Part shown: positions 5,616 through 64,000 of the stretch, piece by piece
Numbering within the stretch: position 1 is the first letter of the stretch
How the letters are laid out: each line of letters opens with the position of its first letter
NCBI RefSeq assembly: GCF_020151015.1
Contig: NZ_CP083746.1
Span: forward strand, 310,001 to 374,000
Source of the DNA: Pseudomonas sp. p1(2021b)
GTDB lineage: Bacteria; Pseudomonadota; Gammaproteobacteria; Pseudomonadales; Pseudomonadaceae
Direction of reading: 5' to 3'
Length of the DNA: 64,000 nt
Notes under the pieces: model-generated
What the model was told of the DNA's origin: nothing
The model's database searches: none
What the model saw: the letters and a program-made list of their open reading frames with translations, nothing else
Translations under genes and position numbers: made by a program

Positions 5616-8261
5616 TCAGCAGTCCAGTGGGTTGCGCTTGTCCGGATCGATGCCGAACTTGACGATGGCGTCCGCCACCACCTTCGGTTCGATCTCGCCA
5701 CGGTCAGCCAAGGCTTCCAGGGCAGCCAGCACGACGAAGTGACGGTCGACTTCGAAGAAGTGACGCAGCTTCTTGCGGCTGTCGCTGCGACCGAAGCCAT
5801 CGGTACCCAGGACCTTGTACTCCTTGCTCGGGACCCACTGGCGGATCTGTTCGGCGAAGAGCTTCATGTAGTCGGTAGACGCCACGACCGGGCCCTTGCG
5901 ACCGGCCAGGCACTGCTCGACGTAGGTCTGCTGCGGCTTCTGGCCAGGCTTGAGGCGGTTGGCGCGTTCCACGGCCAGGCCGTCGCGACGCAGTTCGTTG
6001 AAGCTGGTGACGCTCCACACGTCGGCACCGACGTTGTATTCCTCGCGCAGGATCTTCGCCGCTTCGCGGACTTCGCGCAGGATGGTGCCCGAACCGAGCA
6101 GCTGCACGTGGTGCGCGGCTTCGCGGGTGTCTTCTTCGAGCAGGTACATGCCCTTGATGATGCCTTCCTCGGCGCCGGCCGGGATGGCTGGCTGGGTGTA
6201 GGCTTCGTTCATCACGGTGATGTAGTAGAAGACGTCCTGTTGCTCTTCGGTCATCTTCTTCATGCCGTCCTGGATGATCACCGCCAGCTCGTAGCCGTAG
6301 GTCGGATCATAGGTGCGGCAGTTCGGGATGGTGGCAGCCATCAGGTGGCTGTGACCGTCTTCGTGCTGCAGGCCTTCACCGTTGAGGGTGGTACGGCCGG
6401 CGGTACCGCCGATCAGGAAGCCACGGGTGCGGCTGTCGCCAGCGGCCCACGCCAGGTCACCGATACGCTGGAAGCCGAACATCGAGTAGAAGATGTAGAA
6501 CGGCAGCATCGGCTGGTTGTGGTTGCTGTACGAGGTACCGGCGGCGATGAACGACGACATGGCGCCGGCTTCGTTGATGCCTTCTTCGAGGATCTGGCCC
6601 TTCTTGTCCTCGCGGTAGAACATCACCTGGTCCTTGTCGACCGGCTCGTAGAGCTGGCCCACGGACGAGTAGATGCCCAGCTGGCGGAACATGCCTTCCA
6701 TACCGAAGGTACGGGCTTCGTCCGGGATGATCGGGACGATGCGCTGGCCGATTTCCTTGTCCTTGACCAGCTGCGCCAGGATGCGCACGAAGGCCATGGT
6801 GGTGGAGATTTCGCGGTCGCCCGAGCCGTCCAGGATCGCCTTCAGGGTTTCCAGCGGCGGCGTCGGGACGCTGAAGCTCTTCGCGCGGCGCTGCGGTACG
6901 AAGCCACCCAGGGCTGCGCGACGCTCGGCCAGGTACTTGGCTTCGGCGCTGCCTTCTTCCGGACGGAAGAACGGCAGGTTTTCCAGGTCGGCGTCCTTGA
7001 CCGGGATGTCGAAGCGGTCACGGAAGTGACGCAGGCTGTCGACGTCGACCTTCTTGGTGTTGTGCGCGGTGTTCTTGGCTTCGCCGGCACCGGTACCGTA
7101 ACCCTTGATGGTCTTGGCCAGGATGACGGTCGGCTGACCCTTGTGGTTGACCGCCTGGTGGTAGGCCGCATAGACCTTGTACGGGTCGTGGCCGCCACGG
7201 TTGAGCTTCCAGATCTCGTCGTCGGACAGGTCTTCGACCATGGCCTTGAGTTCCGGGGTGTTGAAGAAGTGCTCACGGACGTATGCGCCGTCCTTGGCCT
7301 TGTAGTTCTGGTATTCGCCGTCGATGACTTCGTCCATGCGACGCTGCAGGGCACCGTTGGTGTCCTTGGCGAACAGTGGGTCCCAGAAGCGGCCCCAGAC
7401 GACCTTGTTGACGTTCCAACCGCCGCCACGGAACACGCCTTCGAGTTCCTGGATGATCTTGCCGTTGCCGCGAACCGGGCCGTCGAGGCGCTGCAGGTTG
7501 CAGTTGATGACGAAGATCAGGTTGTCCAGCTTCTCGCGGCCGGCCAGGGCGATCGCGCCCAGGGATTCCGGCTCATCGCACTCGCCGTCGCCCATGAAGC
7601 ACCAGACCTTCTGCTTGCCGGCCGGGATGAAGCCACGGGCTTCCAGGTACTTCATGAAGCGTGCCTGGTAGATCGCCTGGATCGGGCCCAGACCCATGGA
7701 AACGGTCGGGAACTGCCAGAAGTCAGGCATCAGCCAGGGGTGCGGGTACGAGGACAGGCCTTTGCCGTCCACTTCCTGGCGGAAGTTGTTCATCTGGTCT
7801 TCGCTGATGCGGCCTTCGAGGAAGGCGCGGGCGTAGATGCCTGGCGAGGCGTGGCCCTGGAAGAAGATCAGGTCGCCGCCATGCTCCTCGGTGGGAGCCT
7901 GGAAGAAGTAGTTGAAGCCGATGTCGTACAAGGTGGCGCTGGAGGCGAAGCTCGAAATGTGGCCACCCAGGTCCGAGTCCCGCAGGTTGGTACGCATGAC
8001 CATGGCCAGGGCGTTCCAACGTACCATCGAGCGGATGCGGCGTTCCATGAACAGATCGCCAGGCATGCGTGCTTCGTGGGTAACGGGGATGGTGTTGCGG
8101 TATGGCGTGGTGATTGCGTACGGCAGCTGGGAGCCACTACGGGTGGCCAGCTCGCCCATACGGGTCATCAGGTAGTGAGCGCGGTCTTCGCCTTCTTTGT
8201 CGAGGACCGACTCCAAGGCATCCAGCCATTCCTGGGTTTCGACGGGATCGAGGTCTTGCAT
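5616..8261 (-). CDS. aceE: pyruvate dehydrogenase E1 component, homodimeric type
   Basis: Thiamine-diphosphate enzyme that decarboxylates pyruvate and acetylates the lipoyl groups of AceF, feeding acetyl-CoA to the TCA cycle. The product is 881 residues, close to the E. coli enzyme. The thiamine-diphosphate motif is visible at [14 protein letters not shown] with [10 protein letters not shown] downstream. It starts at the ATG at 8261 and is followed after 13 bases by aceF. No lpd or pdhR gene is adjacent. The upstream region carries two nearly identical palindromes (8372-8438), probably the operator for this operon. Confidence 0.97.
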
Positions 8262-45728: not shown

Positions 45729-45857
45729 CACAAGGACGTAGCGCAGGAAGCGCAAAGGACAGAACAGGGACACGTAGGATTCCTGCCAGGACGGTGGGGC
45801 GATAGGGATGTCGAAGGGAAACAGTCTGGGAAACCCCGCTTAGGCGGGGTTTTCTTT
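45729..45857 (+). ncRNA. rsmY: RsmY regulatory RNA
   Basis: A small RNA that titrates RsmA/CsrA-type translational repressors. About 130 nt, it contains GCGCAGGAAGCGCAAAGGAC near the 5' end, a block shared with P. aeruginosa RsmY as I remember it. At least six GGA motifs follow, in AAGGAC, GCAGGAAG, AAGGAC, CAGGGAC, GTAGGATT and CCAGGACG, with further GGGA copies. It ends in the terminator AAACCCCGC-TTAG-GCGGGGTTT. A -10 like GTTAAT lies at 45717 and a Gac box at 45656. The exact 5' end is an estimate. Confidence 0.9.
45831..45857 (+). terminator. rsmY terminator
   Basis: Perfect 9-bp stem AAACCCCGC / GCGGGGTTT with loop TTAG, then TTTCTTT-like tail. It lies 12 bases before the stop of the convergent LysR gene. 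Confidence 0.9.
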
Positions 45858-61670: not shown

Positions 61671-61813
61671 CTGTCTATTTTCCAAGCTAGGCCGTTTAGC
61701 TTTGAGTTGGTAGGGCTCTGTCCAACTGGAACCCGATCGCGGACCGCTGTGGACACATTGTGGACGCTTGCCCCACTTGTGAAAGGTTATATCCGCGTAA
61801 ATGTGGGGTCGCA

Positions 61814-61843
61814 GAAACAGCAAAGCCGCGCAATGCGCGGCTT
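61814..61843 (-). terminator. terminator of the former tRNA gene
   Basis: On the minus strand AAGCCGCGC and GCGCGGCTT form a 9-bp stem with loop ATT, followed by TGCTGTTTC. It lies 7 bases after the tRNA CCA end, where a tRNA terminator is expected. Confidence 0.75.
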
Positions 61844-61849
61844 CAAGAT

Positions 61850-61895
61850 TGGTGGGCCCACACGGACTCGAACCGTGGACCAAAGGATTATGAGT
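61850..61895 (-). pseudogene. 3' half of a CAU-anticodon tRNA, attachment-site remnant
   Basis: On the minus strand the sequence reads from the anticodon loop CTCATAA through a T-arm (CACGG-TTCGAAT-CCGTG), the acceptor strand TGGGCCC, A and CCA. The 5' partner GGGCCCA, a D-arm and the matching anticodon stem are absent: bases next to the loop (GCGAA) do not pair with TCCTT. This is the pattern left when an element integrates at the anticodon loop and carries the rest of the gene to its other end. Identity is Met or Ile2 (lysidine type); I cannot decide which. Confidence 0.8.
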
Positions 61896-62056: not shown

Positions 62057-62088
62057 CGTCGATCCGGCGTCCCTGCCGGCGCTGGTGT

Positions 62089-62122
62089 CCAGGCCCCGGG
62101 CAAAAAGCCGCCCGGGGCCTGG
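62089..62122. repeat. 12-bp perfect inverted repeat
   Basis: CCAGGCCCCGGG and its exact complement around the 10-base loop CAAAAAGCCG. No T-run follows. It could be a transcription barrier at the element edge or a recombination site. Confidence 0.6.
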
Positions 62123-62339
62123 CTCGGCATCCATGCCTCACCAGCTTCGCTGTTGCAAGGGCGCTGATCTCTGTACCGCTCAGCCTACTGGCTATAGGAT
62201 AGCTAAATGCCGCGACGGGAACCGGCTTATCGTGCCGATTCGGCTGAAGATGGGCTGCTTTAAGGATTCTTGAGCTGTCAGCGGATTATTTTAGGAAGAA
62301 TGCACATGCTGATTGATAAAGCATGCTAGGAGTGTCAGT

Positions 62340-64000
62340 TTGACCAGTCTAAAAATGCGGGTGCAGTCTCATGTACTGAAATTGCTCGGTGATCAGTTGA
62401 TAGGCCACGATAGGCTTGCCGTGTTTGAGCTGGTAAAGAACTCATATGATGCCGATGCGACAAAAGTCGATGTAACTCTAAACCTGGAGAGTCCTACGCC
62501 ATTTATTTCCATATCCGATGATGGGTGTGGGATGAATTTAAGTGATATTGAATCAAAGTGGCTAGAAGTAGGGACGGATTCCAAACGAAGCTCTGCTGGC
62601 AAAAAGCCTTCGCCTAGGTTCAAACGCCTGCCGCTTGGCGAGAAAGGGGTTGGGCGCTTAGCTATTCAAAAACTAGGTGAAACAGTTCATGTTGTTACAA
62701 AAAAGAAAAATGAGGATGAACTAGAGTTCACAATTAACTGGGACGACTTGGTCGGTGGGGGGAAGTATCTCGATCAGGGTCTTTCTGTGTCTGTCGTAAC
62801 GAATTCTCCCCCTAAGTTCATCTTGGGTGAATCCGGCACTACGCTGACGGTTACAGACCTGTCTCGAAGTGAGTGGAGTAAGAGAGAGGTTAGGGACTTG
62901 TATCGTTTAATTACCTCTCTTGGGAACCCCATAAATAAAATTGGATCGTTTGAGGTGGTGCTTAACCTACCTGGGCGCGAAGGCGATATTGAGGATCTGC
63001 CATCAGCTAAGGATATGTTAAATGCTGCAATGTGGACTTTTGACTTTAGCTTGTCTGATGACGGTGTTTTCTCCTGGGATTATAAGTTCAGCCCTCCTGC
63101 ATACAAAGGGCTAAAGCCCTCGTCTGAAAGTAAAGCAGGTGACAGGCTGGAGCTTGTTAAGGCGGCTGAAGAGGACGACACGGATGGTGTGCCAGCAATC
63201 TTCCTTTCCCCTGAAATGCTTCAAGGTATAGGTCCTATAAAGGGGAAGATTTATGCATATCACCGTCGAACCGAGATACTTAAGGAAACAGGGTCTGCAA
63301 AGCTCATTACCGACTGGATCAGATCTCAGGCAGGTGTAAGGGTTTATCGAGACCAAGTCCGCGTGTTCAACTATGGGGAGCCGGGAGATGACTGGCTCGG
63401 CTTGAATGTCCGTAGGATTAATAGGCCTGCTGGAAAACTGGGTACGGACAGTTTGCTAGGGTATATTGATCTTGATTTGTCTCTCAGTTCTGGGTTGAAA
63501 GAAAAGACGAACCGAGAAGGTTTCGATGAGAATTTAACCTATAGAAATCTTCAGCGGGTAGTGCTCAGCATTTTTGATAAGTTTGAGCGTTTGCACGGAC
63601 CGCACCGGAAAGAAATTGATAAGGCCATCAAGGGCGAGACTAAAATAGTTCCTGTTGAAGAGGCTTTTGAGTCGTTAAAAGAAATTGCGAAGAAAAATAA
63701 TATTGAGTCTGAGGTTAAACCGGTAGTTGACTCATTGCAAGCGCAGTTAAATAGCTATCGCACTGTAATGCTCAATTCTGGCATGGCAGGTTTGAACTTG
63801 TCTTTGGCTTTTCATGAGATGGTTCATGGGGTCGATACCCTCACAAGGCAGCTTGAGGCGAACAGTGGTAAGAGTACTCTAGAACAAACAATTACCAACC
63901 TTCGAAAGCTTCTCGATACTTTCAAGCCTTTGCTGAATAAAGAGCGCCCAAGGAAGATAACTGCCAGGGAACTAGTGGCCAGGGCTCTTGATATGAACTC
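62340..64000 (+). CDS. GHKL ATPase with histidine-kinase-like second module, partial
   Basis: The first 553 codons of a gene leaving the window on the right. Start TTG at 62340 has AGGAG 7 bases upstream; ATG 62355 is the alternative. The N-terminus is an HSP90/MutL/histidine-kinase type ATPase: N-box ELVKNSYDADATKVDV (N34, D37), G1 box ISDDGCGM (about 58) and G2 box LGEKGVGRLA (about 100). Around residue 492, FHEMVHGVDTLTRQLE resembles an H-box, with a helical hairpin after it, so a second kinase-like ATPase domain probably follows outside the window. GC content and codon use (AAA, TTA, AGG) differ sharply from the core genes. Family members of this type occur in mobile elements with unknown or defence-like roles. 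Confidence 0.85.
   Translation, partial: MTSLKMRVQSHVLKLLGDQLIGHDRLAVFELVKNSYDADATKVDVTLNLESPTPFISISDDGCGMNLSDIESKWLEVGTDSKRSSAGKKPSPRFKRLPLGEKGVGRLAIQKLGETVHVVTKKKNEDELEFTINWDDLVGGGKYLDQGLSVSVVTNSPPKFILGESGTTLTVTDLSRSEWSKREVRDLYRLITSLGNPINKIGSFEVVLNLPGREGDIEDLPSAKDMLNAAMWTFDFSLSDDGVFSWDYKFSPPAYKGLKPSSESKAGDRLELVKAAEEDDTDGVPAIFLSPEMLQGIGPIKGKIYAYHRRTEILKETGSAKLITDWIRSQAGVRVYRDQVRVFNYGEPGDDWLGLNVRRINRPAGKLGTDSLLGYIDLDLSLSSGLKEKTNREGFDENLTYRNLQRVVLSIFDKFERLHGPHRKEIDKAIKGETKIVPVEEAFESLKEIAKKNNIESEVKPVVDSLQAQLNSYRTVMLNSGMAGLNLSLAFHEMVHGVDTLTRQLEANSGKSTLEQTITNLRKLLDTFKPLLNKERPRKITARELVARALDMN

Follow-up and report, generated by a model that had tools for sequence, protein, structure and literature searches.

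The gene that enters a 64,000-nt stretch of Pseudomonas sp. p1(2021b) DNA (contig NZ_CP083746.1, positions 310,001 to 374,000; hereafter the window) at position 62340 and runs out of it on the forward strand (62340..64000, +, 553 codons plus two bases) encodes, with a probability that we put at roughly 55%, the sensor kinase in a pair resembling a two-component system, which forms part of a restriction-type cassette with C5 methyltransferase and Vsr carried by a mobile element. It is probably the signaling switch of a DNA-defense system, because a sensor kinase with two ATPase modules is paired on this island with a receiver and with DNA-methylation genes. This kind of system has been known from sequence since 2021, and the compact form reported here, which is matched by neither of the Pfam models PF19191 and PF19192, is a new variant.

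The complete kinase gene is preceded by AGGAG, its likely ribosome-binding site (62328..62332, +), and ends at window-numbered position 64454, 454 bases past the window edge; in its product of 704 amino acids (aa), an HATPase_c_3 domain is followed by an S5-like part, then by a DHp helix that carries His492-Glu493, and finally by an HATPase_c domain at the C terminus. The HATPase_c_3 domain (62418..62747, +, residues 27-136; Pfam E 1.1e-18) is paraMORC/MutL/HSP90-like, and the S5-like transducer part with an invariant Lys389 (62952..63524, +, about residues 205-395) has boundaries read from the predicted model and a profile alignment. The DHp-type region is a long helix in the predicted model (63705..63857, +, residues 456-506), where pLDDT is mostly 50-70, and it carries the predicted phosphoacceptor His492 (codon 63813..63815, +); the core His and the following acidic residue are invariant in all 121 aligned homologues, across which the sampled ATPase-motif residues are also nearly all invariant. 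Both HATPase_c_3 and HATPase_c are matched in 41/41 and 55/55 kinase homologues of two sets. The kinase core is of the DHp-CA type of two-component systems, with H, N, and G motifs present, and the N-terminal GHKL domain, as expected of a paraMORC, retains intact ATP-binding motifs in a restriction-modification neighborhood. The original prediction, made from the window's letters, had proposed an HSP90/MutL-like N-terminal ATPase, a phosphoacceptor or dimerization helix at HEMVHG, and a second ATPase module; all three are borne out, the last by the HATPase_c match C-terminal of His492. In the structure model, built on a protein identical to that of the window (P0001), 501 columns were aligned with the MORC3 ATPase (TM 0.50 by target length, rmsd 7.4), and the VIA rows covered mainly residues 363-704. 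Pfam matches to IL5 and GLTSCR1 were below the cut-off and were taken as chance.

The next gene has a four-base overlap with the kinase gene; its product, 450 aa long, has a receiver fold and the phosphoacceptor Asp59. The phosphoacceptor Asp, an acidic residue, and the Lys of the receiver signature are present, and the second acidic residue is Asn. The C-terminal domain of this protein, with an invariant Cys339-Asp340, is a new output domain. Pfam scans of the window's protein and of 58 family members gave no recognized DNA-binding output domain, the single sequence had no relatives among PDB sequences at E 5 or better, a profile search of the PDB returned four chance-level rows (best E 1), and Foldseek with the partner model, built on a protein 97% identical to that of the window (P0121), found nothing with an E-value of 0.001 or below. 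The VIA rows for this model covered mainly residues 5-159. Among the 58 family members, one matched NurA (E 0.0075) and one matched Response_reg (E 0.024) in Pfam. The output domain was found in three of 299 genomes of the phylum, the window's own included, each time inside a partner-sized open frame. Sequence and predicted folds support a pair of kinase and receiver in which an ATPase module is the input, and a working phosphorelay between the two proteins is predicted with high confidence.

The arrangement has a precedent. PMC8011034 (2021) describes HATPase_c_3+HEF_HK+HATPase_c proteins that neighbor Response_reg_2 proteins as well as C5 methyltransferases and Vsr. The system proposed there is two-component-like and linked to both restriction-modification and paraMORCs; signaling is suggested to control restriction-modification, and sensing of nucleoside triphosphates (NTPs) is speculated upon. 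Two ATPase modules in one chain, which the original prediction had called unusual, are no new oddity: 174 of 222 HEF_HK proteins have the same order in that report (PMC8011034). The window's pair shares with HEF_HK (PF19191) and Response_reg_2 (PF19192) the order HATPase_c_3, DHp with His-Glu, and HATPase_c, the adjacent receiver-like gene, and the nearby C5 methyltransferase and Vsr. Profile comparisons by hhalign, whose E-values are those of single comparisons, aligned the kinase with HEF_HK kinases over the N-terminal ATPase and S5 part (E 4.3e-34) and over the C-terminal half (E 4.1e-21), and the DHp part alone reached E 3.1e-5 versus 0.02-0.47 in controls (three shuffled, one reversed). 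From these alignments, the two kinase families are homologous over both halves. The partner resembles Response_reg_2 weakly, with E 4.8e-4 (probability 32) for the receiver part, 0.014 for the whole, and 0.012 (probability 3.5) for the C-terminal part versus 0.31-0.75 in controls, and E 0.25 in a comparison with three sequences.

By contrast with HEF_HK proteins of about 1000 aa, the window's kinase has 704 aa and lacks some 235 residues between S5 and His; the distance between these two points is 96-101 residues in its family (a range resting on at most 120 sequences, as the pattern missed the S5 motif in one of the 121) versus 331-334 in four HEF_HK proteins. The partner is likewise shorter, with 450 aa versus about 580 for Response_reg_2. 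PF19191 matched none of the 41 and 55 kinase homologues, the window's protein being in both sets, PF19192 matched none of the 58 partner-family members, and neither matched in the window's own genome. Because the Pfam models fail on both proteins and the 235-residue stretch is missing, the window's pair is, judged by profile, a compact sister family of the HEF_HK pair, with the same build, and not a member of it. At the four HEF_HK loci, where genes were named by reading their sequences, a methyltransferase-like gene is near in 4/4, and a Vsr-like gene lies between it and the kinase in 3/4. The compact family probably works like the HEF_HK pair. A separate treatment of this family was not found in the open-licence literature, although the sequence lists of PMC8011034 may include members, and no experimental test of the pair was found in the same literature.

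The partners, which the original prediction correctly placed outside the window, directly follow the kinase past its edge: the receiver gene, a C5 methyltransferase, and, after 72 bases, Vsr. Kinase, receiver, methyltransferase, and Vsr genes are all intact open frames, and a Pfam scan found no endonuclease of the AspBHI, MvaI/BcnI, EcoRII, or LlaJI type in the cassette. A kinase-alignment scan of genome contigs confirmed at least 536 stretches, and the best 80, selected by kinase pattern, provided related loci from several phyla, several of which end at contig ends (L042 and L043 scored equally). The partner gene adjoins the kinase in 79 of these 80 loci, always on the same strand, the exception (L089) being cut by a contig end. 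Within 7 kb of the kinase, a C5-methyltransferase-type gene occurs in 65/80 loci, as counted from a BLAST cluster plus phmmer matches without a Pfam scan of each, and Vsr occurs in 39/80; a single-sequence search across whole loci gave 54/80 and 44/80, respectively. Thirty control loci, drawn from genomes related to that of the window and totaling 144 kb versus 1280 kb, held neither gene. The recurrence of the same neighbors, which the original prediction had named as a check, is seen, and the neighbors are of the restriction-modification kind. AspBHI-, MvaI/BcnI-, EcoRII-, and LlaJI-type endonucleases were found in seven, five, three, and one of the loci (Pfam names via representatives); in 64/80 none of these four types was found, and other types were not sought. 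The partner family is present in 4/249 genomes of the genus, the window's own included, and matched 7 of 72,556 plasmid records and one of 50,697 phage records, whereas the kinase matched two phage records, one of them shared with the partner. One record, MT838277.1, which is 5,459 bp long, comes from a human faecal sample, and bears the label Bacteriophage sp., codes for relatives of the kinase (35.5% identity) and of the partner (23.2%).

The kinase, partner, C5 methyltransferase, and Vsr all lie within an element of 12.9 kb that has a tRNA-Met repeat at either end. The left direct repeat (61812..61895, 84 nt, L004 813-896; adding 60999 to L004 coordinates gives window numbering) is 92% identical to a right copy found by a repeat search outside the window (window-numbered 74625-74708), with repeat starts 12.8 kb apart, and it holds 46 nt identical, compared by eye, to the tRNA-Met 3′ end. 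The far copy overlaps the intact tRNA-Met at 74663-74739, beside which lies a tyrosine integrase at 73463-74572 (both window-numbered). In 13/13 loci of this site run through ARAGORN (out of 20, own included), tRNA-Met is at the same place. The spacing of flanking anchors, obtained by coordinate subtraction for 18 of 24 same-genus relatives, ranges from 427 bp to 13.4 kb versus 15.1 kb in the window's genome, so the tRNA-Met site is a variable hotspot; five relatives (G001, G008, G012, G013, G014) were left out because one anchor or both had no good match, and G004 was left out for anchors on two contigs. The relative with 427 bp (G024) represents the site without an insertion of such size. 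Direct repeats of a tRNA 3′ end, an integrase, and a shorter site in relatives together characterize a tRNA-integrated element, of which the kinase gene is the first gene, as had been proposed.

Further features of the element were observed. A DotA/TraY-family gene (L004:7912-10167, window-numbered 68911-71166, past the window; 437 bits) and a gene with weak likeness to integrases (L004:6277-7368, E 0.0018) are possibly the remnant of a conjugative element. Short tandem-like repeats of ~22 nt containing CCCCATA and three 26-nt copies (L004:10904-11068 and 7438-7515) look like iterons or regulator sites, and inverted repeats of 35-37 nt, 89-91% complementary, lie near both element ends (window 62063-62146 and L004:11953-12034). 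The relative G081 (L147:1206-11785) has an element at the same tRNA-Met whose DNA is 82% identical over part of the integrase, tRNA, and flank and whose kinase-partner-methyltransferase cassette is divergent, that is, the same vehicle with a different version of the cargo. Elsewhere in the window, the RsmY small RNA is encoded at 45732-45853 (+, RF00195, 118 bits).

MutL- and MORC-type proteins act as ATP-driven clamps, and DHp helices form dimers. In the proposed mechanism, the N-terminal paraMORC-like module would close as an ATP-driven clamp on foreign, unmethylated (or wrongly methylated), or damaged DNA; closure would allow the CA domain to phosphorylate His492, the phosphate would pass to Asp59 of the partner, and the partner's C-terminal domain with Cys339-Asp340 would carry out or license a restriction, DNA-clearing, or antiviral response. 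The methyltransferase would mark self DNA, and Vsr, the general role of which is the repair of deaminated methylcytosines, would repair them here. If the GHKL domain and the DHp helix both serve for dimerization, the kinase could form a ring. Gene context suggests that the pair is likely to act against foreign DNA, whereas DNA itself as the direct signal is a tentative proposal, somewhat doubtful at present. DNA clamping by the input module is proposed on the model of MORC/MutL-type proteins and of the hypothesis put forward for VcSduA by its authors (PMC12137116).

The pair occurs in three further genomes of the genus, and there an AspBHI-like endonuclease stands between the methyltransferase and Vsr (L145:1038-2228; L146:10125-11357; L147:9929-11119), and further AspBHI-like genes occur at L019, L033, L050, L060, L063, L065, and L070. 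The L147 endonuclease aligns to AspBHI residues 12-389 (E 1.9e-125) and, in an alignment counted by eye, retains W69, D71, Y82, Y83, and D85, the 5-methylcytosine pocket residues given for AspBHI in PMC4499157, together with Lys at 87 as reported there for LpnPI; this pattern is seen in 7/10 AspBHI-like proteins, and 8/10 of their loci also hold a C5 methyltransferase 48-67% identical to that of the window. A methylcytosine-dependent nuclease beside a cytosine methyltransferase should endanger the host unless the specificities differ or the nuclease is controlled. A long shot is that the His-Asp phosphorelay is a safety catch of restriction: in the related Pseudomonas cassettes, where kinase and partner stand with a C5 methyltransferase and an AspBHI-class endonuclease of conserved pocket, self methylation would turn host DNA into a possible target, and the kinase pair would hold killing off until infection releases it, as a suicide switch primed by methylation. 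The window's copy has no AspBHI-class enzyme, and there the partner's Cys-Asp output domain would itself be the effector.

There are two other explanations of the pair. It might be a regulator only, sensing stress or nucleotide levels and tuning restriction-modification expression or activity with no effector role of its own, which is near to the signaling control and NTP sensing put forward in PMC8011034. The 16/80 loci with one of the four endonuclease types agree with this, since another protein can make the cut there; nevertheless, the other 64 loci and the window's cassette are free of these types, and the partner has no recognized DNA-binding output domain, such that we consider a purely regulatory pair unlikely. 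Alternatively, the window's cassette might have lost its endonuclease, with methyltransferase, Vsr, and an idle kinase pair persisting, as the 72 bases in the place of the AspBHI-like gene of the three other genomes could suggest. Such a remnant is quite improbable, as all four genes are intact, kinase and partner retain the sampled catalytic residues, and many distant loci likewise have none of the four types.

Two further identities were dropped. The kinase matches the NCBIfam model of the type II restriction enzymes BbrUII/HgiDII at residues 5-209 with 107.8 bits, and PADLOC matched only N-terminal stretches of it, chiefly to type II restriction enzyme models, as in 41/41 homologues; however, the score is far under the cut-off of 550, the likeness is limited to the N-terminal part, and the C-terminal half is a kinase core and no nuclease, leaving this identity very remote. 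That a housekeeping histidine kinase, MutL, or HSP90 relative sits on the island by chance is hardly credible: likeness to MutL, HtpG, and histidine kinases is seen in short stretches, but the profile and sequence searches made gave no full-length match to a housekeeping family, the partner family is rare in the genus, the genes are on a mobile element, and their arrangement with methyltransferase and Vsr recurs in distant taxa.

His-Asp phosphorelays are known mainly from environmental sensing, and paraMORC modules, which are related to the eukaryotic gene-silencing ATPases MORC and SMCHD1, are poorly understood. If the pair works as proposed, bacteria would read the state of DNA via a MORC/MutL-like module through a His-Asp phosphorelay; paraMORC modules would gain an easily assayed output, what they sense would become directly testable, and the compact 704-aa form would be convenient for such tests. 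Furthermore, profile models of the sister family would let annotation catch what PF19191 and PF19192 miss.

Among other known systems, HATPase and REC, the two domain names that also fit the window's pair, stand in the legend of predicted, non-validated defense systems of DefensePredictor (PMC13092281, 2026), possibly as one system and possibly as one of the window's family. With BbrUII/HgiDII, the kinase shares about 200 N-terminal residues and differs in the C-terminal part. The paraMORC ATPases of restriction-modification systems carry nuclease, TIR, or other C-terminal domains (PMC2292703, 2008); the window's protein resembles them in having intact motifs in its N-terminal GHKL domain, a probable S5-like part, and restriction-modification neighbors, and differs in having a full histidine-kinase core in place of the C-terminal domains named there. 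VcSduA is a Shedu protein with a GHKL (paraMORC3) module, the anti-phage activity of which was tested and abolished by an ATPase change (PMC12137116). In VcSduA, a DUF4263 nuclease on the same polypeptide is the output; DUF4263 is absent among the Pfam matches of the window's kinase to E 0.1, and a Shedu identity was dropped. VcSduA and the window's kinase are nevertheless alike in that an N-terminal GHKL module is proposed as the controller of a C-terminal output.
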